A DNA stretch of 64,000 nucleotides from Deroplatys truncata (lineage: Eukaryota; Arthropoda; Insecta; Mantodea; Mantidae). Position numbers and translations under genes: made by a program. A model generated the notes under the pieces. It was not told the origin of the DNA and made no database searches. It saw only the letters and a list, made by a program, of their open reading frames with translations. Positions within the stretch are counted from its first letter, which is position 1, and each line of letters opens with the position of its first letter. Below are positions 24,561 to 57,500 of this stretch, piece after piece. The stretch is from the NCBI GenBank assembly GCA_030765065.1, contig CM060979.1, positions 17,451,001 through 17,515,000 on the forward strand, in the 5' to 3' direction.

Positions 24561-25459
24561 TGAGGCAGTATTTTTAACACTTAAATGAATTCAGTCAAAT
24601 TATATAATATATATGTATACAAAGCAATATGTGTATGTAACAATATACAAAAAGTGTATATTACAGTCATTGTAAATGTTTATATTATTGTATCCATGTG
24701 TAATAATGTTATGTGAATGTATTACGTAATTTAATAATGTAGGAGCTTTGAGAATAATAGGTTAAAAGTTGCTAACAATGAGGTAACCTTGAGGCAATAA
24801 TGAATTTGAAAGTTTAAATGCTACTAGTCATTATTGGAGCAACAATAATGTAAACTTTGAGACAGTTTAAAAATAGCCAATCACCAACCAGAAAAAGCTT
24901 TAGTTAAATGAAGGTATTCTATTGGACGAGGATTAGCCAATCAAAAACTGAAATATAGCAAAATTTACAAATCTAGAAGTCAGTTGCTTGTAGACAGTGC
25001 TCATAACTGGACGCGTTGCTTGTAGACAGTGTTACTAATCAGACGCGAGATGTGTCCTCGAGAAATTTAATATGTATTCGTGTGAGAAAAATAGTTTACG
25101 TGTTAAAAGGTGCATGTAATTAATAAAACAAATCTAACAGCTCTCTCTGTATCAGTGAAGTGTTATTTAAAATCGTGTCAAGCATCAATAAAAGGAGTGA
25201 AGTAATATAATCTGTCGCACCACCCTGCCAAGAGAAACATGTCTCTAACAATAGTACTGACGCAGCCGAGGCAAACATAAATATAATATTTAAAGAAACA
25301 GTCAAATTACAAAGTTAATATTTTTAAATTTTGGGACGAAGGCTACCGGGTACCATGCGTGCGGTTGCAACTACTTCAAGTTCGGCTCCCCAACAGTTGA
25401 AATATAATACATCTTCAAACTGACTTTCCATACGTAGCAGGAACAAAACACCTTCTTCA
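24561..25459 (+). mobile_element. Solo LTR, family B copy 2
   Basis: 899 bp, TGAGGCAGTATTTTTAACAC to CACCTTCTTCA, flanked by CCCT (24557-24560 and 25460-25463). CCAAT boxes at about 24875 and 24936; AATAAA at about 25122 and 25188. It splits the LINE open frame, whose reading continues across the site when the LTR and one CCCT are disregarded. In copies with more 3' sequence the next bases would be AATTGGCGCCC, a PBS motif, as expected immediately after an LTR. Confidence 0.9.
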
Positions 25460-25485
25460 CCCTGCTGACCGTACATCCACTGCAA

Positions 25486-25905
25486 TGCCTGCCGATAAAT
25501 TCACGCTGGAACAAGGAAATTTTATGTACGATACATACGTAAACGCCGAATCATGAAGATAGGTGTGTAGACAGTTTCAGGAGAAATTTCCTGAAATGTG
25601 AGTTGCAGGTAGAGAAACTGCTAGACCTCTGATCGCTAAACGCTAAATCTAAGAAAACGAGATTTTCTAATGGAGGAAAACAAACTGACGAAACTGGTGC
25701 ATCTATTTGTGTGGAAATCTAAAAAATAAAGTTTATAGGAACAATCCCCACACAATAGGCGAACATAAGGCCAATATAAAAGCAAAAATTATGAACATTA
25801 CGCGAGAAGAACTTATGCATGTGAATGAAAATTTCATCCAAAGATGCCAGGAATTTCTTCACACGATGGACACCACTTATAACAAGGCTAATACTCATTA
25901 TAGTG
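25486..25905 (+). pseudogene. Mariner-like transposase remnant: N-terminus fused to C-terminus
   Basis: ATG at 25486 begins MPADKFTLEQGNFMYDTYVN, a DNA-binding N-terminus common in insect mariner-like transposases (typically MPA..YSLEQR.FIYDTY). After about 60 degraded codons the reading jumps to the C-terminal segment CGNLKNKVYRNNPHTIGEHK and ITREELMHVNENFIQRCQEF. In full-length relatives that segment follows the last catalytic D. The whole catalytic core is absent. The same junction is found at 35562-35960, so the deletion predates the spread of these copies. Confidence 0.7.
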
Positions 25906-26030
25906 CATGTTACATCACTAGTAAGTAACGCGGGAATTACGGAACCAAAACCCCCAGTGTAAGCGTGACCTCGCCATAAAACGACTCTGTACTGTTCAGA
26001 AATGTCTTATTGACTTGTGTAGTGCAGGTG

Positions 26031-26810
26031 TGAGGCAGTATTTTATATCATAACATGCTGTGAATGCCAGAGTGATTGTAGTGTAAATTAATATTATTGT
26101 ATGTACAGGATTTTAGATGTTTGTTAGCCATAAGTATTGTTAGGAAATAAGTTTACACGCCTCACTGAAACTGACAATAGAAATGGGTAACAATAAACCG
26201 AGGGGGTGAGTTGTTTATCACTAAGAAGAGACAAACAAATGACGTCAGGGTAGCGTGCCTTTATTAGAAATGGAGCGAATATCTTCCCTAGAGCATATAT
26301 GTTAGTAGTAGTGATTGGCTGACAAAACAGACGCTAAAGTGGGCGCGATTTGGTAACCAATAGCAGCTCTATTATAATGTTTAGGAAATTCGAGGAGGTG
26401 AAGGAGTATATATTCTCGAGCCATAAGCAAGTATCGCGCAGTTCTGAAGAATCTCTCGCGAGGTGCACGTCGCAGACTTAGTTACAAAAATGTAAAGTAC
26501 GCGAAGTAATTGGTACGCAGCACTATAACGACTGTAGTTACATTGAGAAATATCACAGTTTCAGTCAGGCGTGTATAAAGATTAAATATGTGAATTATTA
26601 ATTAAGTGTGACGGCAATAAAAGTGTAGAAGCAAATTATTTTATCAGTGTTATCTTTTAGCAACAACTCCTTTCCGTTTACAAGCCCTGCTTAGAGATAC
26701 TTGCTCGACTGAGTTGTAATAGCTAGCCGGAGGACAAAGAACTCAAATTTAAAATAATAAAACAAGAGGCGCCCAGTAAATAAGATACCACGAGCCAGAG
26801 AACTGCGACA
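26031..26810 (+). mobile_element. Solo LTR, family C copy 2
   Basis: 780 bp, TGAGGCAGTATTTTATATC to GAACTGCGACA, flanked by GGTG (26027-26030 and 26811-26814) inside mariner-like element G1. CCAAT box at about 26358, TATA-like GAGTATATATTC at about 26408, AATAAA in GGCAATAAAAGTG at about 26616. Only one copy of the 36-bp unit that is tandem in C1 is present. A GAGGCGCCCAGTAAATAAG PBS-like motif lies about 45 bp inside the 3' end. Confidence 0.9.
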
Positions 26811-27336
26811 GGTGTTACCAACTTCAGAAGAGTTGCTGCAAAATACTAACGCTTTAAGCAACAAAAAGTCCTTGTTACTCTTCAGCACAGAATTTGCAGC
26901 AAACCAAGTTGAAGTCATGTGCAAACACATTCAACAATGATTGTTCAGCTCATTGGAGCCGAATGCACATTCAACAGGTTGAAAGTGTGTACATAATGGC
27001 GAGGTAGTTCAGGTTTCGCTATTTACTATTCTCTTCCAAGCAGGGTGAGCGGCAATAAAGCATGTTATGTCAAAAACTATTCGAGACTGAAAATGGAAGC
27101 AAACGATACATGTAAATCAACTGTTACATACGTAGTTCAACATCTCACCACATACTCTCAGCATCCTTCGCTCATTGACTGTAGTTTAAAACTACTTAAT
27201 ACTGGAATTCTGGTAGAGTTTGCCATTTTTACCTCCTCTGTCACATCCACATGGCAGAGGCAGAGGAGGTATTGTACTTCAGCTCGTACTTAATGTATGA
27301 TTTCAATAGAGATATAAGATTTGAGGCCCAGAATCT

Positions 27337-28148
27337 AAAAAAATCTGATGTGTTGCACTCACATGAGTTTCTCTACTCTTGTACAAACTATTTTTACAAA
27401 CGCTTATTCTCCATATGCTTCATGTTAATCGAGATGTTAATCTTATTGGTAATTTTCTTGTAGATGCAAGGGGAATTGGTAGGCTTTAAGCGATAGTCAA
27501 ATATTTTAAACGCTGGTTGCTATGTGGAGCATTCCATTCTCTTTGCATGTCCAGGACATAAAATAAAATGAATAACGAATTTGAGAAAAAGTATAAGTAT
27601 TGGAAAATTTAAGAGAATAACAAGCAATATCTCGAAAATGGTTCGCTCAACAAAAAAAATGTATTTGACATAAATTGTGCATTTTAACGCCGTCTACATT
27701 TTTTGTGTAGTAAAATTTTGTCTATCTCTTATGGTTTACCAGTTATTCAAACGTCGTTCACAATGAAGAATAATTCTGGAGACACTTTCGAGATATACAT
27801 TGTCATGAAAATATCTTATACATATTATATTTTAATCAAAATCTTTAGCACCATTTTTGAGAAAATTAAAATTTTCGAAAAATGTTCCATGTAAAGGGTA
27901 GTCTGGGATGGGGGGATTTTCTTGAAAACCTTCGTGTCGCATCTCTGGAAGATACTGAACCTAAATACCAGTTTGGTGTTTATCCGACTGTTCGTTTCTG
28001 AGTTATGCTCTTCACAGACAGACACACACACACGGACATGTTTCCAAAACTGCTCTTTTTGGATTCAGGGGGTCTCAAAGCATATCGAATTTTTGGGTGG
28101 AGTACAATACCTCCCCTACTTACTATACGTAGTAGAGAAAGTAAAAAC
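27337..28148 (+). repeat. Family A element (M1+M2)
   Basis: M1 (27337-27560) and M2 (27560-28148), young subfamily. The tail lacks about 20 bp between AAAGCATATCGAATTTTTGGG and the usual GTATTTCCGGTGAAATCTCG, and the CA tract is short. 27235-27335 just upstream is a degraded M2 tail on the other strand. Confidence 0.8.
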
Positions 28149-28149
28149 A

Positions 28150-28169
28150 GATCCGAGTGAGAGAGAGAG

Positions 28170-28205
<36 letters not shown>

Positions 28206-28606
28206 CGCGCGTCTGCCGTTCTATAAACAGCATAATTCAAAAGCGAAAACGCTATTGTTGCCTTTGTAACAAGACTAATGGTCTAATTCATAGTCGTCGC
28301 TTATTTTAAAGAAGTCCTTAAGCAGCGATTTTAAATACACAGACGCTACTCTTTCAGACGAATAAGGAAATGCTTATTCATATAAGGAAGCTCTGACCTC
28401 CGGTTATACCCAATAAGGAGAGCCGACGCCCTCTCGCATCAACTGCCTACAACGGAGGTTAACGATAACAGCGATTTCGTGGAGTATACGAAATTGTACT
28501 GCGCATTAATAAATGTATTTGCGTGATTTGCAGAATTCACTTGAAACGTACAAAGATGCTGAATTTAAGAAGAGATGTAGGTTTACCAAATCCGCTGTTG
28601 TAATAA
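28150..28606. other. GT/GA microsatellite and unassigned sequence
   Basis: 28158-28204 is a GA tract followed by a pure GT tract of about 15 repeats. The rest to 28606 shows no open frame or repeat that I recognise. Confidence 0.5.
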
Positions 28607-28608
28607 TA

Positions 28609-29361
28609 CAGGGAGAGCCAAAAAACTACGAACCGCCCGCGCGGTGTTTTTCCTGTACGCGTCCTCGGCCCTCGTTGCCGTCTGCCCTTATCATAGAAAG
28701 GCGCGGATGAAACCATACATTTTTAAAACTACTTTTAAAGGTTTTACTTACCAACTTTATGAAACGAAATGATGAAACTGGCCTCCGTCGTTCTCCATAC
28801 ATTTTTGGCACCTCTTTAGGAAACTATCCATCACTCGCCAAATTTTTTCGAGTCAACAGAATTAACAAGCAGGGAGCGTGATTTTGCCTTTCTTCAACAA
28901 GACTTTGCAACAGCTTATACGGCCAATATTTCGATGAGAAAAATTGAGAGTGTGTTTGAGGACAGACTTATTAGTATAGATTTGTCGCCTCCTCGGTCCC
29001 CCGACTTGACGATTTCTATCTCTGGGGTAACTTAAAACAAAGTATACAAGACAAACCCACACAACCTGGAAGAATTAAAACAAAATATCCGTCAGGAAAT
29101 TGCCACCATTTCTCAACTTGAACTACGGCGAGTGATGGATAGTTTCCTTAAGATGTGCCAAAAATGTATGGACAACGACGGTAGCCAGTTTCAGCATTTC
29201 CTTTCATAAAGTTGGTAAGTAGAATCTTTAAAACTAGTTTTATAAATGTTGTATGGTTTCATCCGCGCCTTTCTATGATAGCGGCACACGGCAGCGAGCG
29301 CCGAGGACGCTGACAGGAAAAACACCGCGCAGCCGGTTCGTAGTTTTTTTGGCTCACCCTG
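28609..29361 (+). mobile_element. Fold-back mariner derivative with TIRs over 200 bp
   Basis: Flanked by TA (28607-28608 and 29362-29363). Ends begin CAGGG(A/T)GAGCCAAAAAA. The left arm (28609 to about 28835) is the inverted counterpart of about 29125-29361, with roughly 90% similarity by eye, some small indels, and shared TCTTTCATAAAGTTGGTAAG-like and AACTATCCATCACTCGCC blocks. The right arm includes the 3' end of a transposase gene, so the left arm carries an antisense copy of it. Confidence 0.85.
28895..29207 (+). pseudogene. Mariner-like transposase, C-terminal third only
   Basis: Visible pieces are QQDFATAYTANISMRK (position of the second catalytic D, normally QQDGA.AHTA), PPRSPDLTISISG (normally SPDL..DF.LWG; the third D is lost through a small deletion), then NKVYKTNPHNLEELKQNIRQ and RRVMDSFLKMCQKCM to the stop near 29207. 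The DNA-binding domain and first catalytic D are missing. The last 27 or so codons lie in the right inverted arm. Dead element; mobilisation would need a transposase supplied elsewhere. Confidence 0.75.
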
Positions 29362-29363
29362 TA

Positions 29364-30234: not shown

Positions 30235-31149
30235 TGAGGCCGTATTTATAACATTTAAATGATTTTCAGCCAAATTATATAATATTTAAATTCAATAACA
30301 GCCCACCTTGAAGCAATATGTGTATGTAATAATTTGTAAAATGTACATATTACAGTCATTGCAAATGTTTATATTATTGTATCCATGTTTAATATTATGT
30401 GAATGTATTACGTAATTTAATAATGTAGGAGCTGTGAGAATAATAAGTTAAAAGTTGCTAACAATGAGTAACAATGAGGTAACCTTGAGTCGATAATGAG
30501 TAAGAAAGTCTAACAGTAATACTTGTGATTCTTGGAGTGACAATAACGTAATTTTTTAGACAGTTTAAAAATGGCCAATCAACAACCAGAAAAAGCTTTA
30601 GTTAAATGAAGGTATTCTATTGGAGTAGGATTAGCCAATCAGAAACTGAAAAGGAGAAAAGTTTACAAATTTAGAGTTCAGTTGCCTGCAGACAGCGTTA
30701 CTAACCAGACGCAAAAAGTGTCCTCATGAAATATATGTATTTGTGTGAGACGAAAAATAAGTTTACGTGTTAAAAAGTGCAATTAATTAATTAAAGAATC
30801 TCACAGCTCTCTATATCAGTGAAGTGTTATTTAAATCGTATCAAGTATTAATAAAAGGAGTGTAGTAAAATTATAATCTGTGTAAGCCTACATTCTTGTC
30901 GCATCACAACCCTGATAAGAGAAACGTGTCTCTAACTATAATACTGATGCAGCCGAGGCAAACATAAATATATAATATTTAAAGAACTAGACAAATTACA
31001 AAGATAATATTTTTTTTAAACTTGGGCTAAGGCTACCGGAAACTGTTTACTATACGTGCGGTTGCAAAGTTCGGTTCCCCAACAGTCGAAATACGATACA
31101 CCTTTCTCAAATTGGCTTTCCATACGTGGGACAGAAATTACCTTTATCA
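30235..31149 (+). mobile_element. Solo LTR, family B copy 3
   Basis: 915 bp, TGAGGCCGTATTTATAACAT to ACCTTTATCA, flanked by AACT (30231-30234 and 31150-31153). CCAAT boxes at about 30574 and 30632, AATAAA at about 30851. The 3' end falls at the same PBS-like step as copy 2. Family A sequence follows directly; the left flank is not family A. Confidence 0.85.
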
Positions 31150-31160
31150 AACTGTTCACA

Positions 31161-31218
<58 letters not shown>

Positions 31219-32169: not shown

Positions 32170-32171
32170 TA

Positions 32172-33376
32172 CACTACGTGATCAAAAGTATCCGGACACC
32201 TGGCTGAAAATAATGTACAAGTTCGTGGCGCCCTCCATCGGTAATGCTGGAAGTCAATATGGTGTTGGCCCACCCTTAGCCTTGATGACGACGTTCACTC
32301 TCGCAGGCATACCTTCAATCAGGTGCTGGAAGGTTTTTTGGGGAATGGCAGCCCATTCTTCACGGAGTGCGGAACTGAGGAGAGGTATCGATGTAGGTTG
32401 GTGAGGCCTGGCACGAAGTCGGCGTTCCAAAACATCCCAAAGGTGTTCTATAGGATTCAAGTCAGGACTCTGTGCAGGCCACTCCATTACAGGGATGTTA
32501 TTGTCGTGTAACCACTCCGTCACAGCCCGTGCAGTATGAACAGGTGCTCGATCGTGTTGAAAGATGCAATCACCATCCCCGAATTGCTTTTCAACAGTGG
32601 GAAGCAAGAAGGTGCTTAAAATATCAATGTAGGTCTGCGCTGTGATCGTGCCACGCAAAACAACAAGGGGTGCAAGCCCCCTCCAGGAAAAACACGATCA
32701 CACCATAACACCACCACCTCCGAATTTCTCTGTTGGCACTACACGCGCTGGCAGATGACGTTCACCGGACATTCGCCATACCCACACCCTGCCATTAGAT
32801 CGCCACATTGTGTACGGTGATTCGGCACTACACACAACGTTTTGCCACTGTTCAATCGTGTAATGTTGATGCTCCTTACACCACGCGAGGCGTCGTTTGG
32901 CATTTTCCTGCGTGATGTGTTTCTCATCTCACGTCTAACTGTCATAGTACTTGAGTGGATCCTGATGCAGTTTGGAATTCCTGTATGATGGTCTGGATAG
33001 ATGTCTGCCTATTACTCCTTACGACCTTCTTGAAATGTGGCGGTCTGTGTCAGTCAACAGACGAGTTCGGCCTGTACGCTTTTGTGCTGTACATGTCCCT
33101 CCACGTTTCCACTTCACTATCACATCAGAAACAGTGGACCTAGGGATGTTTAGGAGTGTGGAAATCTGGCGTACAGACTTCTGACACAAGTGACACCCAA
33201 TCACCTGACCACGTTCGAAGTCCGTGAGTTCCAAGGAGCGTCCCATTCTGCTGTTTCACGATGCCCAATGACTACTGAGGTCGCGGATGAGTTCCAGGCA
33301 GTAGATGGCAGCACAATACACCTAAGATGAAAAACGTATGTTTGTGGGGGTGTCGGATACTTTTTATCACATAGAG
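32172..33376 (-). mobile_element. Tc1-like transposon (DD34E), copy 1
   Basis: 1,205 bp bounded by TA (32170-32171 and 33377-33378). Left end CACTACGTGATCAAAAGTAT and right end (reverse complement) CTCTATGTGATAAAAAGTAT continue as CCGGACACC and CCGACACC, giving TIRs of about 28 bp. Transposase is on the minus strand. A sister copy lies at 43157-44378 in the opposite orientation. Confidence 0.92.
32254..33246 (-). pseudogene. Tc1 transposase, frameshifted
   Basis: ATG at 33246 starts [20 protein letters not shown], then the paired helix-turn-helix ([17 protein letters not shown]) to about 33019. Frame is lost in the middle, where the first catalytic D region lies. It is recovered at 32658 and stays open to the end at 32254. 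That part shows CIFQHDRAPVHTARAV (second D) and SPDLNPIEHLWDVLERRLRA, with the catalytic E 34 residues after the D, the DD34E spacing of Tc1. Full length would be about 330-340 residues, normal for the family. The protein binds its TIRs and moves the element into TA sites in the nucleus. Several frameshifts make this copy inactive. Confidence 0.88.
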
Positions 33377-35280: not shown

Positions 35281-36372
35281 CGGGCTTAAATACAGTGCGG
35301 TCGTTTTAAGGTGAGGCCAAAGTCCGGCTATATGCATAGCGCACTGCACTACAGTGATCTCTGGACTTTTCCGATGCGCAACTGGCGGCACATGACGCGT
35401 TCAAGGTTGCCTTTAACAGTAGCGCTTCAGCCGCTGCTTTGTGCTCGTGCTGTAAAGAGATTTGTGCATTGTGCATGTCAAAGGTGAAAGTTTATACAAG
35501 ACATCTGTGTTGTGTGTGATTTGTTTAAGAGTGATAATGTCTTATTACTAGTCCACTACAATGCCTGCCGACACATTCACCCTTGAGCAACGTATTTTTA
35601 CGTATGATACATACTTAAACACTAAATCATGTGTGTAAACAGTATCAAGAAAAATTTCGTGGCATTCCAGTTCCAGGTAGAGAAACTGTTAGCCGTCTGG
35701 TTAATAAGTTTAGAGCACGGGATCGCTGAACGCTAAACCTAAGAAGCGAAAATGAGATGTTCTAAAGGAGGTAAAAAAATTGAAGAAATTGGTTCATCTA
35801 ATTGTGGGGAGCCCTAAAAATAAAGTTTATAGGACAATCCCCACACCGTAGACGAACTTAAGGACAATATAAAACAGTAATTATGAACAGTACGCAAGAA
35901 GAACTTATGCGTCTGAATGAAAATTTCATCCGAAGATACCAGGAAGTCTTCACGCGATGAACACTACTTGTAACAAGGCTAATACTCCTTGTAGCGCACG
36001 TTACTATCACTAGTGAGTAAGTAAGCGGGAATTACTTAACGAAAATCCCCCAGTGCGAGTGTGCGGAGCACGCATACGTGCGATCCGTGGCCTCTCCATA
36101 GACGGCTGCACTGTACTATTCAGAAGAGCCTTATTGACTTATGTATTGCAGGTGTTACAAACTCTGAAAACTTGCTGCAAAATGTGCATATCTAACGCTT
36201 TCAACAACAAAAAGTCCTTATTGCTCAGCAGCACAGAAATTGCAGCAAACGTGAAGTCATGTGCAAACACCTTCAACTATTATTGCTCGGCTTGGCGAGT
36301 ACATTCAACAGGTTGAAACTGTGTGCATAATGGCGAGGTAGTTCAGGTTTTGCTATTTGCTTATTCTCTTCC
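35281..36372 (+). mobile_element. Internally deleted mariner-like element G2 (uninterrupted)
   Basis: 1.09-kb copy of the element that carries the LINE and LTRs at 23.9-27.0 kb. Similarity runs from CGGGCTTAAATACAGTGCGG to TATTCTCTTCC. It has a long 5' leader (about 280 bp), a short degraded coding part and a 3' region ending with AACAGGTTGAAACTGTG. No clear TIRs were seen. Confidence 0.7.
35562..35960 (+). pseudogene. Mariner-like transposase remnant with the same core deletion as G1
   Basis: MPADTFTLEQRIFTYDTYLN begins at 35562. It continues as a frameshifted helix-turn-helix (VPGRETVSRLVNKFRA), better preserved than in G1, and then jumps to the C-terminal NSTQEELMRLNENFIRRYQE. The catalytic domain between them is missing, with the junction in the same place (around AAAATAAAGTTTATAGGA.CA). 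Several stops. It shows that the DNA-binding end of the protein is recognisably mariner-like although TIRs are not visible. Confidence 0.7.
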
Positions 36373-36608
36373 ATGTAAAGCGAAGTAAATCAAATAATTT
36401 ATTACAGTATTAAAATTACAATGAACAGAATTTATTTTATTTTAAATACACCTATTTCTTTGTTTATCTGGAGAATGGATCCGTGTGAACTGATGTTTTG
36501 AAGGTGTTAAAGCAGTAACATCATAATAAGTCGCTGAAGCATAATGGATACCATTATAGCTTTATTTTCATATAATCAGCGCCTTATAGTATGGTCGACA
36601 AAAAAACT

Positions 36609-37535
36609 TTAAGAAGAATGAGTAGAGAAAACCATGTAAATGTTACACATAAGAATGGTTTTAGAAGAGCGAATAGAGAAAGCCATGCGAATGTTGCACA
36701 TAATGGCTTTACAAGAATGAGTAGAGAAAGTCATGTGAATGTTGCACATAAGAATGGTTTGTAGAAGAGTGAGTAGAGAAAAGCATGTGAATGTTACACA
36801 TAACAATGTTTTGTAGAAGAGTGAGTAGAGAAAGCCATGCGAATGTTGCACATAAGAATGGCTTTACAAGAATGAGTAGAGAAAGCCATGTGAATGTTGC
36901 ACATAAGAATGGTTTGTAGAAGAGTGAGTAGAGAAAGCCATGTGAATGTTGCACATAAGAATGGTTTGTAGAAGAGTGAGTAGACAAAGCCATGTGAATG
37001 TTTCACATAAGAATGGTTTGTAGAAGAGTGAGTAGACAAAGCCATGTGAATGTTGCACATATGAATGGTTTGTAGAAGAGTGAGTAGAGAAAGCCATGTG
37101 AATATTGCGCATAAGAATGGTTTGTAGAAGAGTGAGTAGACAAAGCCATGTGAATGTTGCACATAAGAATGGTTTGTAGAAGAGTGAGTAGACAAAGCCA
37201 TGTGAATGTTTCACATAAGAATGGTTTGTAGAAGAGTGAGTAGACAAAGCCATGTGAATGTTGCACATATGAATGGTTTGTAGAAGAGTGAGTAGAGAAA
37301 GCCATGTGAATATTGCGCATAAGAATGGTTTGTAGAAGAGTGAGTAGACGAAGCCATGTGAATGTTGCACATAAGAATGGTTTATAGAAGAGTGAGTAGA
37401 GAAAGTCATGTGAATGTTGCACATAAGAATGAGCAGAGAAAACGATGTGAATGATATACATAAGAATGGTTTGTAGAAGAGTGGGTAGAGAAAGTCATAT
37501 GAATGCTGCACATAAGAATAATTTGTAATGGTAGC
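36609..37535 (-). repeat. 52-bp satellite array with a 208-bp higher-order repeat
   Basis: About 18 units. The consensus contains GGTTTGTAGAAGAGTGAGTA, then GAGAAAGCCATGTGAATGTT, then GCACATAAGAAT. Four variant units form a block repeated exactly 208 bp apart: the TTTCAC variant starts at 37001 and 37209, and the ATTGCGC and CATATG variants recur in the same order. The unit is similar to the end of family A M1 (minus sense GTTTGTACAAGAGTAGAGAA, then AGTCATGTGAGTGTAACAC). Long open frames on the minus strand (up to 228 codons) arise because the unit lacks stops and cycles through frames. Confidence 0.95.
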
Positions 37536-38400
37536 ATGTAGAATAAGCATGTCTGGACGCTCGCTCGGTTACGTCAGCGGTGCATTAGAGGCAGATTGTA
37601 TACATGCTGTGAACACTTAATAACTCCATGCAGGCCAACCATTAGCATAAATCAGCTGCAGAACCCTTAAGGACGAGATACACTCACCACACGCTGTTGC
37701 AAGAAGAGCAGTCAGTACGTATTGATTACAGGACTCACCTGGAACAAAAACAGACACACAGTAAGTTACAGCTCAAGAAAACCCGTTTTAACATTTCATT
37801 AACTGTTTTACACAATATATGTAATTCGACATGAGCAAATAATTTACGGGGTCTTCAGATTTATTCGGCGTTTCCGCCAGTCGATTTTTCGCATATGACG
37901 TCAACACTTTGAAGCGAGAGGAAGCGGTAGATGTCAACAGTTTCGAGGTCACATTAGTGAAATGGCACTTGTATCGTACCTTTCCAGTATTTACATTTGG
38001 AACGTCTTTCGCTTTCGTCTCGTAACCCCGCAGCCTCGGCATGTATCTGATAGGTAATTCAAATAACTGGACGGTTTTTGTGGCGTACTGTCTCGGCTTC
38101 GCACTCAACCGTGCAAATTCTGTGATTTCCACACTGCATCTCGCGTGCAAAGAACGCACATCAACCTGTTTATGAAGTCGGAAACGCATGCAGTCCGAGG
38201 TTCAATTCCGCACCTCCTCTTTGAAATAAACGGCTCGCTGAACTAATAATGACGTCATTCATTTAAACCGGGTGGCGGTAAAGGCAGAATAAATCTGAAG
38301 AGCCATCATAAGGCTAAGCTAGACAATCAACCAACAAAAATAGTCATGATTAGCTGAAAAGTACGATGTTTTAGCTGCACAAAAGACTAAATTACTTGTT
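37536..38400. other. Unassigned interval with a 133-codon minus-strand frame
   Basis: The frame at 37788-38189 (minus) starts MRFRLHKQVDVRSLHARCSV. It has a basic, serine/threonine-rich composition, no signal peptide or membrane segment, and no motif I know. Close upstream on the plus strand is a B-box-like GAGGTTCAATTCC (38202-38214), which hints that part of this block is an old SINE. I would not call a gene here without transcript support. Confidence 0.3.
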
Positions 38401-38995: not shown

Positions 38996-40350
38996 TTTTA
39001 CTTTCTCTACTACGTATAGTAAATAGGGGAAGTATTCTATTCTACCCAAACATTCGATACCGAGATTTCACCGGAAATGCATGTTTTGAGACCCCCTGAA
39101 TCCCAAAAAAATATGGTAACATGTGTGTATGTGTGTGTGTGTGTGTGTGTGTCTGTGTGTGCGCGAACAGCTTAACTCAGAAACGAACAGTCGGATACAC
39201 ACTTTTTCTCAAATGGGAATTCGTTATTCATTTTTACTTTCTCTACTACGTATAGTAAGTAGGGGAAGTATTGTATTCCACCCAAAAATTCGATACCGAG
39301 ATTTCACCGGAAATACATGTTTTGAGACCGCCTGAATCCAAAACAAGGATTTTTGGAAACATGTCCGTGTGTGCGTCTGTTAACAGCATAACTCAGAAAC
39401 GAACAGTCGGATGAACACCACACTTGGTATTTAGGTTCAGTATCTTCCAGAGATGCGACACGAAGGTTTTCAAGAAAATCCCCCACCCAAGATTACACTT
39501 TACATGGAAGATTTTTCGAAAATTTTAATTTTCTCAAAAACGGCTCTAACGATTTTGATTAAAATATCATAAGTTTAAGATATTTTATGAGAAATAAAAT
39601 GTATATCTTGAATTTCCTGGGAATGTCTCCAAAAGTATTCTTCATTGTGAACGACTTTTGCATAACTGGTAAACCATAAGAGATAGACAAAATTTTACTG
39701 CACAACAAATGTAGATTGCGTTAAAATACACAATTTATGTCATAGACATTTCTTTTGTTGAGTGAACCATTTTCGAGATATTACTTGTTATTCCCTTAAA
39801 TTTTTGAATACTTATTTTCTCAAATGGGAATTCGTTATTCATTTTTTGTCTTGAATATGCAAAGAGTATTAATCTGTGGGAAAGGGAATGGTGCTGCACC
39901 TAGCAACCAGCTATTAAGAGATATGTATGTGCTTAAAGGCTACTGTATTTCCAAATTGCCCTTGTAAATATATATTCCTCTTACATCTACATGAAAATTA
40001 GTAATAAGATAGAGTATACAAATGTTTATCTCGATTAACATGAAGTAGATGGAGAATAAGCGTTTGTAAAAATAGTTTGCACAAGAGTAGAGAAAGTCAT
40101 GTGAGTGTAACATATCAGATTTTTTGTCCTGGTAATGCAAAGAGAATGGAACACTCTACATAGCAAGCAGCTCTTAAAACATTTGACTATCGCTTAAAGT
40201 CTACCATATTCCCCTTGCACCTACAAGAAAATTAGCAATAAGATTAACATCTCGATTAACATGAAGCATATGGAGAATAAGCGTTTGTAAAAATAGTTTG
40301 TACAAGAGTAGAGAAAGTCATGTGAGCGTAACACATCAGATTTTTTTTCT
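38996..40350 (-). repeat. Family A array: M2, M2, M1b, M1
   Basis: First M2 (38996-39235) has a large internal deletion after the GT tract (39127-39162). A full M2 follows (39236-39850). Next comes an M1b-type unit (39851-40120) starting GTCTTGAATATGCAAAGAGT, then a standard M1 (40121-40350) ending GTGAGCGTAACACATCAGA. Modules abut at T-runs. Confidence 0.8.
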
Positions 40351-42249: not shown

Positions 42250-43085
42250 TTTATTACTTACTCTACTACGTAGAGTAAGTAGGGGAAGTATTGTATTCCA
42301 CCCAAATATTCGATACCGAGATTTCACCGGAAATACATGTTTTGAGACCCCCTGAATCCAAAAAAAGCATTTTTGGAAACATGTCCGTGTGTGTGTCTGT
42401 GAACAGCATAACTCAGAAACGAACAGTCGGATAAACACCAAACTTGGTATTTAGGTTCAGTATCTTCCAGAGATGCGACACGAAGGTTTTCAAGAAAATC
42501 CCCCCACCCCAGATTACCCTTTACATGGAACATTTTTCGAAAATTTTAATTATCTCAAAAATGGCTCAAACGATTTTTATTAAAATATCATATGTTTAAG
42601 ATATTTTTATGACAAATAAAATGTGTATCTTGAATATTCTGGGAATGTCTCCAAATGTATTCTTCATTGTGAACGACTTTTGCATAACTGGTAAACCATA
42701 AGAGATAGACAAAATTTTACTGCACAAAAAATGTAGATCGCGTTAAAATACACAATTTATGTCATATACATTTTTTGTTGAGTGAACCATTTTCGAGTTA
42801 TTGCTTGTTATTCCCTTAAATTTTGCAGAACTTATACTTTTTCTCAAATTCGTTATTCATTTTTTTATGTCCTGGATATGCAAAGAGAACCACATAGCAA
42901 CCAGCGCTTAAAATATTTCACTATCGCTTAAAACCTACCATATTCCCCTTGCATCTACAAGAAAATTAGCAATAAGATTGACATCTCGATATCTCAATTA
43001 ACATGAAGCATATGGAGAATAAGCGTTTGTAAAAACAGTTTGTACAAGAGTAGAGAAAGTCATGTGAGTGTAACAGATCAGATTT
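42250..43085 (-). repeat. Family A element (M2+M1)
   Basis: M2 42250-42865, M1 42866-43085, complete and in standard order, ending GAGTGTAACAGATCAGATTT. The GT tract is very short (42386-42396), so microsatellite length varies strongly between copies. Confidence 0.85.
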
Positions 43086-43156: not shown

Positions 43157-44378
43157 CAATATATGATCAGAAGTATCCGGACACCTCCACAAACATACGT
43201 TTTTCATCATAGGTGCATTGTGCTGCCATCTAGTGCATGATACTCATCCGCGACCTCAGCAGTCATTAGACATCTTGAAACAGCAGAATGGGACGCTCCA
43301 TGGAACTCACGGACTTCGAACGTGGTCAGGTGATTGGGTGTCAGAAGTCTGTACGCGAGATTTCCACACTCCTAAACATCCCTAGGTCCACTGTTTCTGA
43401 TGTGATAGTGAAGTGGAAACGTGAAGGGACATATACAGCACAAAAGCCTACAGGTCGAACTCGTCTGTTGACTGACAGAGACCGCCGACATTTCAAGAAG
43501 GTCGTAAGGTGTAATAGGCAGACACTTATCCAGACCATCACACAGGAATTCCAAACTGCGTCAGGATCCACTCCAAGTACTATGACAGTTAGGCGTGAGG
43601 TGAGAAACCTCGGATTCCATGATCGAGCGGCTGCTCATAAGCCACACATCACGCAGGAAAATGCCAAAAGACGCCTCGCTTGGTGTAAGGAGCGTCAACA
43701 TTACACGACTGAACAGTGGCAAAACGTTGTGTGGAGTGACGAATCACGGTACGCAATGTGGCGATCCGATGGCAGGATGTGGGTGTGGCGAATGCCCGGT
43801 GAACGTCATCTGCCAGCATGTGTAGTGCCAACAGTGAATTTCGGAGGTGGTGGTGTTATGGTGTGATAGTGTTTTTCTGGAGGGGGCTTGCACCCCTTGT
43901 TGTTTTGCCTAGCACGATCACAGCGCACCCTACATTGATATTTTAAGCACCTTCTTGCTTTCCACTGTTGAAGAGCAATTCGGGGATGGCGATTGCATCT
44001 TTCAAGACGATCGAGCACCTGTTCATACTGCACGGGCTGTGGCGGAGTGGTTACACGGCAATAACATCCCTGTAATGGACTGGCCTGCACAGAGTCCTGA
44101 CTTGAATCCTATAGAACACCTTTGGGATGTTTTGGAACGCCGACTTCGTGCCAGGCCTCACCAACCTACACCGATACCTCTCCTCAGTTCCGCACTCCGT
44201 GAAGAATGGGCTGCAACCTTCCAGCACCTGATTAAAAGTATGCATGCGAGAGTGAACGCTGTCATCAAGGCTAAGGGTGGGTCAGCACCATATTGACTGC
44301 CAGCATTACCGATGGAGGGCGCAACGAACTTGTACGTAATTTTCAGCCAGGTGTCCGGATACTTTTGATCACGTAGTG
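43157..44378 (+). mobile_element. Tc1-like transposon (DD34E), copy 2
   Basis: 1,222 bp bounded by TA (43155-43156 and 44379-44380). Right end is the complement of CACTACGTGATCAAAAGTAT; the left TIR is mutated (CAATATATGATCAGAAGTAT). Same family as 32172-33376, opposite orientation, inserted in family A. Confidence 0.92.
43288..44296 (+). pseudogene. Tc1 transposase with stops and one frameshift
   Basis: ATG at 43288 begins [20 protein letters not shown]. The frame is open for 192 codons through both helix-turn-helix motifs (to about residue 100) and [15 protein letters not shown] (first catalytic D), ending at tandem TGA TAG after GGGGVMV. The same frame then reads CFSGGGL before a further stop. 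After a frameshift the last 114 codons (43955-44296) are open, with CIFQDDRAPVHTARAV (second D) and SPDLNPIEHLWDVL (E, 34 residues later). Relative to the sister copy it lacks three codons after VIGC and four in the EEWAA.FQHL stretch. All three catalytic residues are intact; perhaps four lesions separate it from an open frame. Confidence 0.9.
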
Positions 44379-46754: not shown

Positions 46755-47880
46755 AAAAAAATCTTTAGTGTTACCTCACATGACCTTTTCTACTCTTGTA
46801 CAAACTATTTTTACAAACGATTATTCTCCACATGCTTCATGTTAATCGAGATGTTGATCTTATTGCTAATTTTCTTGTAGATGCAAGGGGAATTGCTAGG
46901 CTTTAAGCGATAGTCAAATGTTTTAAGTGCTGGTTGCTATGTGGAGTATTGCATTCTCTTTGCATTACCAAGACAAAAAGAATGAATAACGAATTTGAGA
47001 AAAAGTATAATTATTGGAAAATTTAAGGGAATAACAAGCAATATCTTGAAAATGGTTCACTCAACAACAAAAAATGTATATGACATAAATTGTGTATTTT
47101 AACGGGATCTACATTTTTACTTTCTCTACTACGTATAGTAAGTAAGGGAAGTATTGCAATCCACCCAAAAATTCGATACCGAGATTTCACCGGAAATACA
47201 TGTTTTGAGACCTCCTGAATCCAAAAAAAGCATTTTTGGAAACATGTCCGTGTGTGTGTGTGTGTGTGTGTCTGTGTGTGTGTGTCTGTGAACAGCAACG
47301 AACAGTCGGATAAACACCAAACTTGGTATTTAGGTTCAGTATCTTTCAGAGATGCGACACGAAGGTTATCAAGAAAATCCCCCCACCCCAGACTACCCTT
47401 TACATGGAACATTTTTCGAAAATTTTATTTTTCTCAAAAACGGCTCTAACGATTTTGATTAAAATATCATATGTTTAAGATATTGTCATGACAAATAAAA
47501 TGTATATCTCGAATTTCTGGGAATGTCTCCAAAAGTATTCTTCGTTATGAACGACTTTTTCATAACTGGTAAACCATAAGAGATAGACAAAATTTTACTA
47601 CACGAAAAATGTAGATCGCGTTAAAATACACAATATATGTCATATACATTTCTTTTGTTGAGTGAACCGTTTGCGAGATATTGCTTGTTATTCGTTAAAT
47701 GTTCCAATACTTATACTTTTTCTCAAATTCGTTATTCTTTTTTACTTTCTCTACTACGTATAGTAAGTAGGGGAAGTATTGCATTCCACCCAAAAATTCG
47801 ATACCGAGATTTCACCGGAAATACATGTTTTGAGATCTCCTGAATCCAAAAAAAGCATTTTTGGAAACATGTCCGTGTGT

Positions 47881-47917
<37 letters not shown>

Positions 47918-49148
47918 TGTGAACAGCATAACTCAAAAACGAACAGTCGGATAAGCACCAAACTTGGTATTTAGGTTCAGTATCTTCCAGAGATGCGACA
48001 CGAAGGTTTTCAAGAAAATCCCCCCACTCCAGACTACCTTTTACATGGAAAAGTTTTCGAAAATTTTATTTTTCTCAAAAATGGCTCTAACGATTTTGAT
48101 GAAAATATCATATGTTTAAGATAATGTCATGAGAAATGAAATGTATATCTCGAATGTTCTGGGAATGTCTCCAAAAGTATTCTTCATTGTGAACGCCTTT
48201 TGCATAACTCGTAAACCATAAGAGATAGACAAAATTTTACTACACAAAAAATGTAGATCGCGTTAAAATACACAACTTATGTCATATACATTTCTTTTGT
48301 TGAGTGAACCGTTTTCAAGATATTGCTTGTTATTTCCTTAAATTTTCCAATACTTATACTTTTTCTCAAATACGTTATTCATTTTTTTATGTCCTGACAT
48401 GCAAAGAGAATGGAATGCGCCACATAGCAACCAGCGTTAAAATATTTGACTATCGCTTAAAAGCTACCATATTCCCCTTGCATCTACAAGAAAATTACCA
48501 ATAAGATTGACATCTCGATATCTCGATTAACATGAAACATATGGAGAATAGGCGTTTGTAAAATTAGATTGTACAAGAGTAGGGAAAGTCATGTGAGTGT
48601 AACACATCAGATTTTTTTTTATGTCCTGGACATGCAAAGAGAATGGAATGCGCCACATAGCAACCAGCGTTAAAATATCTGACTATCGCTTAAAACCTAC
48701 CATATTCCCCTTGCATCTACAAGAAAAGTATCAATAAGATTGACATCTCGATATCTCCATTAACGTGAAGCATATGGAGAATAAGCGTTTGTAAAAATAG
48801 TTTGTACAAGAGTAGAGAAAGTCATGTGAGTGTAACACATCAGATTTTTTGTATAGTAAACGTTTGTTTATTTCTTATGGTTTACCAGTTATGCAAAAGT
48901 CGTTCACAATGAAGAATACTTTTGGAGACATTCCCAGAAAATTCGAGATATACATTTCATTTGTCATGAAAATATCTTAAACATATGATATTTTAATCAA
49001 AATTTTCGAAAACTGTTCCATTTAAAGGGTAATCTGGAGTGGGGAGATTTTCTTGAAAACCTTCGTGTCGCATCTCTGGAAGATACTGAACCTAAATACC
49101 AAGTTTGGTGTTTACCCGACTGTTCGTTTCTGAGTTATGCTGTTCACA

Positions 49149-49547: not shown

Positions 49548-49674
49548 TTTCCCTACTACGTATAGTAAGTAGGGGAAGTATTGTATTCCACCGAAAAATT
49601 CGATACCGATATTTCACCGGAAATACATGTTTTGAGACCCCTGAATGCAAAAAAAGAATTTTTGGAAACGTGTC

Positions 49675-49712
<38 letters not shown>

Positions 49713-52905: not shown

Positions 52906-53160
52906 TGGAGATCGCCATTTTGCTTTCCAAACAACATTGATTCCTACAGCGAGGTTTTGGAAGTCTTTCATATAACTATTAATATCTAGTGTAATTGCGT
53001 TGTAATATATTACCTTCAGTTACTTTGGGCAGAGGCAAAGTGTTTCGAATAGCTGAAGCAGGGGCAAGAGCGTTTCTCTCGCATTGGTTATGTTTTTTGT
53101 TCCTGACTGCAAACACTATAGTGAACTCCAGTCTAAAAACTCCCTAGGTAAGTCCCCCCT

Positions 53161-54112
53161 TTTTACTTTCTGTACTCAGTATAGTAAGTAGAGGAAGTAT
53201 TGCATTCCTCCCAAAAATTCATACCGAGATTTCACCGGAAATACATGTTTGGGGCCTCCTGAATCCAAAAAAATTATTTTTGGAAACATGTCCGTGTGTG
53301 TTTGTGTCTATCTGTCTGTCTGTGAACAGCATAACTCAGAAACGAACAGTCGATAAACACCAAACTTGGATTTAGGTTCAGTATCTTCCAGAGATGCGAC
53401 ACGAAGGTTTTCAAGAAAATCCCCCATCCCAAATTACCCTTTACATAGAACATTTTACGAAAATTTTAATTTTCTCAAACATGGCTCTAACAATTTTGAT
53501 TAAACTACCATATTTTTAAGATATTTTCATGACAAATGAAATGTATATCTCCAATTTGCTGGGAATGTCTCCAAAAGTATTCTTCATTGTGAACGACTTT
53601 TGCATAACTGGTAAACCATAAGAGATAGACAAAATTTTACTACACTAAAATGTAGATCGCGTTTAAATACACAATTTATGTTATATACATTTTTTTGTTG
53701 AGTGAACCATTGCTTGTTATTCCCTTAAATTTTCAATACTTATTTTCTCAAATGGGAATTCGTTTTTCATTTTTTTGTCTTGGATATGCAAAGAGTATTA
53801 ATCTGTGGCAAAGAGAACGGTGCTGCACCTAGCAACCAGCAATTAAGAGATATGTGTATGCTTAAAGGCTACTGTGTTTCTATATTGCCCTTGCAAATAC
53901 AAAACAAGGGGAACATAGTACGCCTTAAGCGATAGTCAAATATTTTTAGAACTGGTCGCTATGTGTAAAATGTAATTCTCTTTGCATGCCAAAAGATCGT
54001 TTCTGCAAACGTTTATCTCCATTAATATGAAATAGATGGAGAATAAGAGTTTGTAAAAATAGTTTGTACAAGAGTAGAGAAAGTCATGCGAGTGTAACAC
54101 ATCAGATTTTTC
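53161..54112 (-). repeat. Family A element: M2 then hairpin-form M1b
   Basis: M2 53161-53770 (short GT tract 53294-53318 with TCTG units). M1b 53770-54112 has an internal inverted block at about 53905-53993 (GGGGAACATAGTACGCCTTA to CTTTGCATGCC). Near identical in layout to 50151-51110. Confidence 0.8.
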
Positions 54113-54119
54113 TCGATGA

Positions 54120-54391
54120 TCCCAGACTGTGTGTATTTTCCAGAGACGGCCTGGGAGTGCGGAATCGTATTTCGTTGCATACCTATGTTAAGGGTTTATG
54201 CAATGTGTGAAAATTGTATAAGTTTTGTTATTTAATAACTATGGGCCTAAAAAGAAGGTTCAACGGTTTATAATTTAACCTACTATAAGTTCTTTAACAA
54301 GTTACTGGACTATCCCGACCGGGGATTCTTCCACCGTCAAAGGTACTTTCAGGCTATGCAGCATAAAATCTACCCCTTCAACGTCGTATTA
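54120..54391 (-). repeat. Family E fragment, inverted copy
   Basis: GTGCGGAATCGTATTTCGTT, CTATGTTAAGGGTTTATGCA and GGGGATTCTTCCACCGTCAA are the reverse complement of 38690-38900. The mariner at 54394 interrupts it. Confidence 0.6.
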
Positions 54392-54393
54392 TA

Positions 54394-55633
54394 CGAGGGG
54401 TCGGCTGATAAGTCCCGGGTCTCACACAGAGATGGCCCCACTAGGCCAGTTAGACGGTAGCATCGTATAGTTTTACTCTAGACTAGCTTGTATCCATAGT
54501 TACAGGTGAATAGTTTTCACGAATATGGAGGATTTGGAAAACTGAGCAGTGATTAAATACTTCCATTTGAAAGGCTTAACGTCTAAAGAAATCAAAGAGG
54601 AAATGAGCAGTACATTGAAAACTCTGCCCCTTCATATTCAATGATTAGAAGGTGGGTTGCAGAGTTTAAAATGGGACGTACGAGCACTAGTGATGAGCGT
54701 CGGTCTGGACGCCCTGTGGAAGTCTCAACTCCAGAGATGATTGAAAAAAATTCATGGTTTAGTACTGGAAGACCGCAGATTAAAGTTGTTTGAGATAGCA
54801 GAGGCTGTAAACGTATCAAAAGAATGTGCAGGTAATATTTTAAGTAATGTTTTGAACTTTCACAAGGTCTGTGCCAGCTGGGTGCCGCGTTTGTTGACAC
54901 CTGATCAAAAGTTGCATAGAAAAACTGTTTCTGTTAAGAACGTGGAGCTCTACCGTAAAAATCCCAATGAATTGTTGAGGCGGCTATTTATTACCAAGGA
55001 TGGAACTTGGATACATCACTACACTCCAGAAAGTAAATCAAAGTCAAAACCGAGGATTGCGCCAGGTGAGCCAACTCCAAAAAAGGCAAAGTCAATTTTG
55101 TCAGCTAACAAGTTTATGGCGAGTGTTCTCTGGGATGCACAGGGAATTATTTTTATTGGTTACTTGTAAAAGGGTAAAATTATCACTGGTGACTACTACG
55201 CAAACTTACTGCAACGTTTGAGTGATGAGGTGAAAAGACAAAGTGCTCATTTTGCAAAAACCAAATCTTGTTTCACACGACAATGCTCCGGCCCATCGTT
55301 CAGACATTGCAATGGGGAAAATTTGCGAATTAAAGTTCGAATTGCTTGAACATCCACCCGATTCGCCAGATCTAGGACCAGTGACTATCACCTGTTCCAT
55401 AATCTCAAAAAAGTTTTTGGATGACGAAGATTTCACAGCAACGAGGAGGCCATTGATGCGGTAAACAGCTATTTTGAGGACCTTGATAAATCGCACTACA
55501 GAGATGGTTTAAAAGAAATAGAACACCGGTATGACAAATGTATTAACCTTTCTGGAGATTATGTTGAGAAATTAAAAAACAAATTTAAATGTTGTTTTCA
55601 TTTAGAGGCCCGGGACTTATCAGCCGAACCTCG
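54394..55633 (+). mobile_element. Mariner transposon, irritans-type (DD34D)
   Basis: 1,240 bp between TA dinucleotides (54392-54393 and 55634-55635). TIRs CGAGGGGTCGGCTGATAAGT and CGAGGTTCGGCTGATAAGTC continue into CCCGGG, about 28 bp. The ATAAGTCCC core is typical of irritans-group mariners. Confidence 0.9.
54523..55590 (+). pseudogene. Irritans-type mariner transposase, frameshifted
   Basis: The start region reads MEDLEN then a stop, YFHLKGLTSKEIKEEMSST, and a frameshift. The long middle frame (54741-55169) contains the second helix-turn-helix (LFEIAEAVNVSKECAGNILS), WVPRLLTPDQKLHR, a mariner hallmark, and LFITKDGTWIHHYTPESKSK, where the first catalytic D is followed by G instead of E. After a stop at GYL the next frame reads LVSHDNAPAHRSDIAMGK (second D) and HPPDSPDLGP. 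A one-base shift then restores the SDYHL context of the third D, 34 residues on. The C-terminus (RYDKCINLSGDYVEKLKN) is preserved to 55590. At least four lesions; inactive. Confidence 0.88.
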
Positions 55634-55689
55634 TACAAAAGTCTTTATACATCCTTGAACCGATTTCGACCAAATTTCGCACACATTGT

Positions 55690-57500
55690 TTGGGACAACG
55701 AAAAGCAATCGTTCGTTTTCATTTATACGACCTTCTCTACCCACAATAGTTTATTTTCATATAGCTTCTACAAAGCCTTCCTATTTTTCACCTATGTACT
55801 TTATGTAAATCAAGATAAGCCTTTGCAATAATATTTGCATTACACATGTCGTTATAGATATATGGGTGATATAGAAAACCGAACCAATAAGATGTTTAAA
55901 AGTGACTGGCTAAATGCTAACCTTGAAATTCCATATTCTTTCCATTATATCGCGAGCGCACTTTCAAAAAGTATGCCACAAAAAGGCTATAACAAATTGT
56001 ATGTTTTAAAGATATCTGGATTTTTTGTGAGGTATGCTTTTTGTTTATTTCTTACAGTTTACCAGTTATACAAAATTCCTTCTGAATGAAGGTAACTTCA
56101 CAGGTTATTCCCAGAAAATTAAAGATATAGATTTTATCTGTCGTGTAAATATATTTAATATATGGTATTTTAATCTAAATTGATAGTCTTTTTTAGAAAA
56201 TAAAAAATGTCGAAAATGTTCCATCTAAAGGGTAGTTGGGGGTGGGAGGATTTTCTTGAAAATCTTCGCGTCCATTCTTTGGAAGATACTGAACTTAAAT
56301 ACTAAGTTTGGTATTTTGAGGCAGTATTTTTAACACTTAAATGATATCAGCCTAATTATATAATATAAAATATAATAACAGCCCGCCTTCAAGCAATATG
56401 TGTATAATATAATGTGTAAAGTTTATGTTACAGTCATGGTATTATGTTTATATTATTATGTACATGTATAATAATGTTATGTGAATATATTACGTAGTTT
56501 TAACAATGTAGGAGCTGTGAGAATAGAAGCCGAAAGCTGCTAACAATGAGTTAACAATGAGGTAACCTTGAGGCAACAATAAATTAGTAAGTTTAACAAA
56601 GGCTACTAGTAATTATTGAAACAATAATGTAATATTTAAAACAGCTTAAAAATATCCAATCAAAAACTAAAAAAAGCTTAAGTTAAATAAAAGTATTCTA
56701 TTGGAGTAGGCTTAGCCAATCAGAGACTTGAAATAGAGAAAAAGTACAAATTCAGGCGGGAGACGCTACAAGACAGCGTTCCCAACAAGTCCAGTTTACA
56801 TTGCGTCCGATCGGTACGGACGTATTCAGTGTGAGACATCAAAAATGCATTACGGTGTGAATAATATAAAGTTTACGATTTTAAAAAGGTAAAGTAACAA
56901 TAATCTCACAGCTCTACAATAGGATACATCAGTGAAGTGTTATTTAATCGTGTAAACGATTAATAAAATCAAGTTAAATACCATTATAATTTGTGTAAGC
57001 CTTCATTCTTTAGCCGTACTACCCCTGCTAAGGGATACGTGTTTCTGCAAATTACTACTGACGCAGGCGAGGCATACATATATAATATTTAAATAAACAT
57101 TCAGATTACAAGGTTGATTTTTTAAACGTGGGGGCGAAGGCCACCGGAAAACTGAACGTGGGGCGAAATATATCTGCCGTAATACGTGGTGCAAACAGTA
57201 GTAATAAACAATCTCAGGTTTCCTCTCCCATACGTGGGGCATTAACCCCCTCAAGTTTGGCGCCCAAAGCGTGGTGCTAATAACGTAAAGATAATTCTAA
57301 TCCAATTTATGCCACTTCGTTTTTTGAGTTATGCTGTTCACACATAACCGCGCGCGCGCATTCTTTTCCTAAAAAGGCTATTTTGTATTCATGGTGCCTC
57401 AAAACAGTATTATCGGTGAAAGGTCGGTATCGAATTTTTGGATGAAATGCAATACTTCCTGTACTTACTATAGATACATAGTATAGAACTTAATATTTTT
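55690..57500 (+). repeat. Old family A element split by LTR B4
   Basis: Plus-strand old M1 and M2 (GACCTTCTCTACCCACAATA through GGGTAGTTGGGGGTGGGAGG) reach TTTGGTATTT at 56316. They resume at 57309 with ATGCCACTTCGTTTTTTGAG, exactly the next position of the consensus, and end at GTATAGAACTTAATA near 57495. Confidence 0.75.
56317..57304 (+). mobile_element. Solo LTR, family B copy 4 (long 3' end)
   Basis: 988 bp, TGAGGCAGTATTTTTAACAC to GATAATTCTAATCCA, flanked by ATTT (56313-56316 and 57305-57308). The family A host reads continuously across the site, which fixes both ends. Unlike copies 2 and 3 it includes the PBS-like AGTTTGGCGCCCAAAGCG (57254-57271) and about 33 bp beyond. Earlier PBS-like steps ACGTGGGGGCGAAGG and ACGTGGGGCGAAA are also visible. 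Confidence 0.82.

Follow-up and report, generated by a model that had tools for sequence, protein, structure and literature searches.

The stretch analyzed here, a window of 64,000 nucleotides from Deroplatys truncata (C5:17451001-17515000 of a 4.29-Gb assembly), contains copies of two families of long terminal repeats (LTRs), six of family B and two of family C, whose 3' ends fall at different places along a series of motifs resembling a primer-binding site (PBS). B2, B3 and B4 begin with TGAGG and end with CA, and the ends and 4-bp target-site duplications (TSDs) that the original prediction, made from the letters of this DNA, had assigned to B2 (CCCT), B3 (AACT), B4 (ATTT) and C2 (GGTG) are present where it placed them. 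Its claim that short copies stop just before a motif that longer relatives run past also holds, in that B2 and C2 end immediately ahead of the PBS-like motif of a relative, and B4 and C1 continue through the homologous motif to an end further on. The continuation of the short ends can be read from B1 and C1, both of which lie outside the interval described earlier (24561..57304); in an alignment of B1 to B2, the B1 bases just past the B2-type end are AATTGGCGCCC. The copies are as follows (B6 is cut off by the window end and its 3' end is putative; repeat R is described further below):

9368..10325, + strand: B1 LTR; 5' end damaged, start approximate; right boundary interpreted as a deletion joint against repeat R
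21974..22936, + strand: C1, solo LTR of the long type with a PBS1-like unit inside; end CCACTTCA, the same as that of the full-length element L032; inserted within an (AT)n run
24561..25459, + strand: B2, solo LTR of the short type, TGAGGCAG...CTTCTTCA; TSD CCCT
26031..26810, + strand: C2, solo LTR of the short type; end GCGACA, the same as that of the full-length element L037+L044; TSD GGTG
30235..31149, + strand: B3, solo LTR of the short type; end CTTTATCA; TSD AACT, by which alone the boundary is set
56317..57304, + strand: B4, solo LTR of the long type, running past the PBS-like unit at 57258-57277; end TCTAATCCA; TSD ATTT
57509..58507, + strand: B5 LTR, extending beyond unit u4; putative 3' boundary; flanks are different parts of repeat R

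The copy-specific LTR ends relative to the PBS-like series are real in the window. When the flanks of a copy were joined and the window was searched for stretches aligning across the joint (an empty-site test), 18 stretches elsewhere in the window spanned the joint of B4, and one, 35972-36292, spanned that of C2 and represents an empty-site relative. Two stretches (18328-18057 and 11669-11397) align over the full length of the joined C1 flanks, although the (AT)n itself aligns poorly, and the remaining six matches that span this joint are short or repetitive. Across the joined flanks of B2 one reading frame stays open; we take it to be LINE-like, and it had no Pfam match. No stretch of the window spans the joint of B3, whose left flank has no other match in the window and whose right flank is repeat R, beginning in the middle of a unit.

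The motif series in the LTR tails matches TGGCGCCCAACGTGGGGC, the tRNA-Lys1,2 PBS, which PMC1084362 prints as the Lys1,2 PBS, and it is clustered on the sense strand of the LTR 3' ends. The units picked out in the window are:

10271..10291, + strand: PBS-like unit u4 of B1, AATTGGCGCCCAACTTGGGGC, one mismatch, after the B2-type end
22861..22882, + strand: PBS1-like unit of C1, AATTGGCTTCCATACGTAGGGC, directly after the C2-type end and inside the C1 LTR
31111..31132, + strand: unit u3 of B3, ATTGGCTTTCCATACGTGGGAC, within the LTR
57219..57240, + strand: unit u3 of B4 (..CTCCCATACGTGGGGC), within the LTR
57258..57277, + strand: unit u4 of B4, TGGCGCCCAAAGCGTGGTGC, within the LTR
63273..63294, - strand: PBS-like unit of B6, ATTGACGCCCAAAGCGTGGTGC, in the copy cut by the window end

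Nine matches to TTGGCGCCCAACGTGGGGC in the window score at least 18; six of them lie on the sense strand within 1,426 nt of LTR tails, two overlie these near-palindromic motifs on the minus strand, and the ninth is elsewhere (35198). In 200 Markov-resampled sets of tails, matches scoring at least 16 averaged 0.1 with a maximum of 2, against 6 observed. The predicted PBS-like copies near the B and C 3' ends are thus borne out by a tail concentration (6/9) above Markov chance. At scores of at least 14 the tails hold seven matches to the Lys1,2 motif (and two on the reverse strand), one to that of Lys3 and none to those of Ile and Met, and 1 of 300 permuted 18-mers reached seven tail matches. Rfam and ARAGORN gave no match in the 64-kb window. 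The scores of the B units tend to drop upstream, from 34 (B1), 29 (B4), 25 (B6) and 14 (B5) for u4 to 18 for u3 (B3 and B4). Units u1 and u2, together with u3 of B1, B2 and B5, were recognized through context and half-motifs only, u2 and these u3 being below threshold, and B2 and C2 contain no unit above threshold (best scores 4 and 5).

Because 8 of the 13 places in the window that match the 12-mer CTTCAAATTGGC within two mismatches are in LTR tails, the units resemble fossil LTR/PBS junctions (CA, 3 nt, TGG; context CA-AAT-TGG). Only this concentration is informative, as the 13 places compare with 8.1 expected across the whole window and 6 of 100 shuffles reach 13, which is no clear excess; AACGTGGGGC, at up to two mismatches, occurs 36 times in place of 25.2 expected.

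In the genome, the exact 19-mer occurs at 4,866 places (2,406 + 2,460) and its reversed control at none. Among the 100 places listed, all on contig C1 (a contig, not the LTR copy of that name), 25 fall into 12 same-strand clusters within 150 bp; the 32 loci examined on this contig comprise all 12 listed clusters together with 20 sites that stand singly. Of the 32, 20 have a pair of LTRs and a 4-bp TSD, TG and CA being required by the script. One of these, L011, was left out since its end had been set at a CA-TACA that occurs by chance and its LTR tails are unlike each other, leaving 19 counted elements. LTR ends were set from the CA and TSD of the 3' LTR and transferred by alignment to the 5' LTR, the PBS not being a condition except as a tie-break in L019 and L030. 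Raw alignment of the LTR pairs, free of the CA and TSD conditions, gave a block end no more than 2 nt from the set end in 16/19 elements (the longest block in 14/19), with L013, L030 and L034 off by 5, 7 and 4 nt, respectively.

In all 19 counted elements a PBS starts 3-5 nt past the LTR, so that the motif directly following the 5' LTR, which the original prediction had proposed to examine, is a tRNA-Lys1,2 PBS. This edge PBS is exact to the printed sequence in 17 of the 19, the others being L022 (one mismatch) and L024 (an insertion variant). Exactness is concentrated at the site after the LTR: exact units account for 17/19 at the edge, 2/29 inside LTRs and 7/19 in the leader. When the exact unit was redrawn within each element, 8.18 of 19 were expected at the edge, and none of 20,000 draws reached 17. 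PBS-like units (score of at least 16) occur within the terminal 560 nt of the LTR in 16/19 elements and in the following 430 nt, the leader, in 15/19; the motif read backwards has no match in the same 19 stretches. An extra exact PBS besides the edge PBS is found in 9/19 elements, the edge PBS itself being inexact in L022 and L024. The arrangement that would have spoken against the prediction, one LTR end common to all elements with the additional motifs outside the LTR, is not what we found, as ends vary and PBS-like copies lie inside the LTRs of those 16 elements.

Family C provides both end states, each in a full-length element with a TSD. In L037+L044 the LTR ends with CCGCGACA, followed by AAT and the exact PBS1 (TGGCGCCCAACGTGGGGC), then AGATAAACATGAAGCATCTTCC...CTACTTCA, AAT and TGGCGCCCAACGTGGGGCG; the exact PBS2 starts 74 nt past the LTR end, and the TSD, CAAT, stands after the CCGCGACA of the 3' LTR. 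L032 reads GTGACA, AAT, TGGCTTCCATACGTGGTGC, ATATAAACATGAAGCATCTTCC...CCACTTCA, where its LTR ends, then AAT and TGGCGCCCAACGTGGGGCG (TSD ATTG), so that the exact PBS2 is the one used and the PBS1 position lies inside both LTRs. Family C accordingly does not have the ordinary single edge set by one PBS: the edge precedes PBS1 in C2 and L037+L044 and PBS2 in L032, and C1 has its edge where L032 does. As C2 ends like L037+L044 and C1 like L032, the contrast between the two window copies amounts to this very step, observed in solo LTRs. The step between these states may have gone either way, and the exact PBS2 of L037 could reflect recent use of PBS2.

Other elements bear on the direction of single steps. 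L019 (TSD TTAC) and L024 (TSD CCTT) contain an exact PBS inside both LTRs and used a later PBS, with LTR pair identities of 99.5-99.7%, which reads as a recent outward step. In L022 the edge PBS has one mismatch and an exact PBS starts 143 nt past the LTR end, suggesting that the edge moves inward as well. L014, L016, L017, L034, L037 and L038 combine an exact PBS at the edge with an exact one in the leader. For the B and C copies of the window, the contrast in ends is established and the direction of each step is left either way; a tree of the six B copies did not settle it. Equating the C end with the CA preceding u3 of B was tried and rejected, as similarity between the whole C and B tails lies within shuffle range, only the stretch CAAATTGGCTT(T)CCATACGT being common, and it was not used for direction.

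Some elements also carry duplicated spacers. In 5 of the 11 elements that allow the comparison, the spacer behind the in-LTR unit resembles the one behind the active PBS: L012 (35/35 bases), L034 (29/30), L022 (59/66), L014 (20/22) and L030 (12/12). In the window copy B5, u2 and u4 are followed by spacers that agree in 15 of 16 bases (the best of nine pairs; 2 of 2,000 shuffles). Among five B copies, similarity is 0.97 in u2 compared with 0.88 in the LTR body, 0.70 in the spacer of u2 and 0.65 in u3 (0.74 without B6). At the B 3' ends, alignment columns 981-1040 show 0.65-0.79 per 20 columns in the five copies, below the body (0.88), with u2 (0.97) immediately before them; columns past 1040 are not comparable, as they include the flanks of the short copies.

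We propose, with a probability that we would put at about 0.83, that the LTR edge is set by the PBS copy used within a serial array, so that old primer sites are trapped in the LTR and its length changes in steps. Between the U5 end and the leader, such an element would consist of a series of units, each with an LTR end (CA) separated by about 3 nt from a PBS, which is followed by a spacer of roughly 30-100 nt, and more than one PBS copy could serve as the start of reverse transcription. Whichever copy is used would fix the 3' edge of U5; the daughter LTR would stop just before it, upstream copies would enter both LTRs, and downstream copies would remain in the leader. Synthesis of minus-strand strong-stop DNA begins from the PBS in use, and the sequence from there up to the cap becomes the daughter R-U5. 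Plus-strand strong-stop DNA copies 18 tRNA bases; the 3' end of tRNA-Lys(CUU) is expected as ...GCCCCACGTTGGGCG ahead of the added CCA. Because of this copying, a PBS in use would be rewritten as the exact tRNA complement, with unused copies drifting, in agreement with exact copies being concentrated at the edge. Use of a downstream PBS would then move the edge outward and trap the old PBS, reuse of an upstream copy would probably move it inward, and the units may multiply at least partly by tandem duplication.

Several points weigh against this proposal. The loci were selected for the exact 19-mer, so that the rate of 17/19 is inflated, and the redrawing test conditions on this selection without removing it. 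Twelve of the 32 loci (L010, L015, L018, L020, L021, L023, L026, L027, L028, L031, L035 and L036) had no usable LTR pair with TSD. L019 and L030 each had two candidate ends, of which the one followed by a PBS was chosen, and L025 was set by hand. In L011, the twentieth element with an LTR pair and TSD, the LTR tails differ and no PBS follows the common edge. L029, L030, L032 and L017 have two LTRs of unequal length. In the window, u4 of B4, B5 and B6 carries a common 2-nt insertion relative to the tRNA complement, and the contrast between B2 and B4 is one between solo LTRs, no close full-length B element having been obtained. Finally, 6 of the 11 spacer comparisons showed no similarity, so that tandem duplication is not the whole story.

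The original prediction was that these LTRs may have grown stepwise, each old PBS being trapped by priming from a downstream copy. The trapping is supported by family C and by L019 and L024, but the one-way growth is not, as L022 suggests inward moves. A strict version, in which every step leads downstream after PBS duplication and never back, we regard as unlikely, although not negligibly so: PBS-like fossils inside LTRs require net outward movement, and the exact PBSs inside both LTRs of L019 and L024 were presumably used recently, but in L022 the exact copy is the one beyond the edge, six elements are exact in the leader besides being exact at the edge, and among the window copies the most divergent, B4, is long while B2 is short, which does not favor a short-to-long order. 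We consider it probable that the edge moves both ways along the PBS array. Were the motifs instead no more than PBS-looking tandem repeats gained in U5 by ordinary slippage, with the ends a matter of subfamily sequence, the edge would stay at one homologous place; yet C2 and L037 have their LTR end at the homologous CA, which is interior in C1 and L032, and exactness follows the site after the LTR. Other parts of these LTRs, away from the PBS series, do contain tandem duplications, at 22379-22501 (C1, 36 bp) and 24983-25047 (B2, 32 bp), and L029 has one upstream of the series in one LTR only, but as an explanation of the series slippage appears quite improbable.

Selection might also maintain the serial motifs as functional extra tRNA-binding sites for primer capture or positioning. 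The high similarity of u2 relative to the LTR body in five B copies agrees with such a role, as does the stable use of tRNA-Met by HIV-1 once U5 is complementary to its anticodon region, as described in PMC1084362. In-LTR units are, however, mostly inexact (2/29 exact), and u3 and the u2 spacer of B are less alike than the body, so that we hold this role to be improbable, if a little less so than slippage. Longer LTRs could also be aberrant products of plus-strand synthesis reading past the PBS into the tRNA, which would likewise add sequence downstream of the PBS. What follows the trapped PBSs is the element leader (ATAAACATGAAGCATCTTCC in C1, L032 and L037), which aligns with the leader of the short type and is unlike the tRNA body; readthrough was dropped as very improbable. 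A choice among PBS copies at priming, with renewal of the copy used, is the explanation that we retain.

In L029, L030, L032, L017 and L011 the two LTRs of the element are set apart by inserted, deleted or replaced stretches, most of them close to the PBS series; misannealing at strand transfer may be the cause. In L011 the tail of the 3' LTR is a repeat (96% over 77 nt) of a stretch further upstream and is absent at that place on the 5' side, and an exact PBS would lie inside both LTRs if the 3' LTR ended at the second CA-TACA. L013 (494-6955) is a tandem element with a common middle LTR (LTR-internal-LTR-internal-LTR), the copies being 99.8-100% alike.

Elements of the B and C type are probably Ty3/gypsy-like LTR retrotransposons and, judging from the PBS, probably primed by a tRNA-Lys of the Lys1,2 type. 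Terminal repeats (TG...CA) with a short TSD are found in the 20 loci and, in the window, in B2, B4, C2 and C1, and a PBS of the printed Lys1,2 type, exact in 17, follows the 5' LTR in all 19 counted elements. Only L011, a cousin of B (65-70% identity over the first 400 nt), yielded pol domains: RVT_1 (3.7e-26), RT_RNaseH_2 (8.9e-21), Integrase_H2C2 (6e-12) and rve (7.1e-07; 29.9 bits, under its cutoff of 32.6), and this order of reverse transcriptase (RT), RNase H and integrase is that of Ty3/gypsy (Metaviridae). The single open reading frame scanned from L016 had no retroelement family match, no RT having been scanned for the TGATACGG group and C. The LTR starts are alike: TGAGGCAGTA (B and L011), TGTGGCAGTA, TGTGGCATTG, TGATACGGTA, TGATGCAGTA and TGAGACGGTA. 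A pattern from the LTR body had no match in the prokaryote genome and viral contig collections, nor did AATTGGCGCCCAACGTGG in viral contigs. The exact 18-mer had one match in the viral and prokaryote collections, viral locus L001, which lies in GC-rich open frames with no LTR-like repeats and was rejected as chance.

Like Ty3/gypsy elements with a tRNA-Lys PBS, these elements have TG...CA LTRs, a 4-bp TSD, a PBS about 3 nt after the LTR and, in L011, the same domain order; unlike them, they have serial PBS copies across the LTR edge, and members of a single family have this edge at different copies. Two or more PBSs per genome, as in 9/19 elements here, are already known from HIV-1 revertants, in which the PBS reverts toward the tRNA-Lys3 complement, but those arose in cell culture after PBS alteration, and the accessible text reports no old PBS copies inside LTRs (PMC1084362). 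The foamy virus PBS, TGGCGCCCAACGTGGGG, is the same motif, whereas the text available gives one PBS and mentions no series (PMC3386198). An account of LTR structure and evolution notes tandem repeats in U3, but its accessible parts make no mention of a U5 edge moving along PBS copies (PMC3601003). The literature searched, which covers few subscription journals and is thus a weak negative, contained no report of serial PBS copies setting different LTR edges, and within it the movement of LTR edges along such copies is the new part.

The window also contains other repeats. Family R occurs in many copies with (CA)n, in both orientations, between 573 and 58634 (for example at 39231-39845, 42251-42867 and 47114-48388); it hosts the B4 and apparently the B1 insertion, and B3 and B5 abut it. 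Three long tandem arrays lie at 60516-61970 (55-bp unit), 15077-15992 (44 bp) and 36606-37540 (52 bp), and the interval 60001-62000, which holds the 55-bp array, has a strong GC skew of -0.43. Tc1-like transposase fragments at 32254-32927 and 43279-44296, with DDE_3 in both and HTH_Tnp_Tc3_2 in the second, are inverted relative to each other, their arms being 90-97% alike and about 11 kb apart.

It seems to us reasonably likely that these elements have a mobile LTR edge, with tRNA-Lys choosing the U5 boundary in each cycle, LTRs lengthening and shortening by whole units, the array recording former primer sites, and renewal taking place only at the site in use. The inner U5 edge is usually located by the PBS, as a landmark that does not move, and a moving PBS would be a simple route to changes in LTR length. 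If this is true, neither the length of LTRs nor classification based on them would be stable within a family, and annotation that assumes one PBS and one edge may misplace boundaries and split families. The contrast between exact and decayed units would offer a natural test of the tRNA rewriting its PBS, for which the 4,866 exact sites in one genome could give large statistics, and solo LTRs would keep a readable history of priming.

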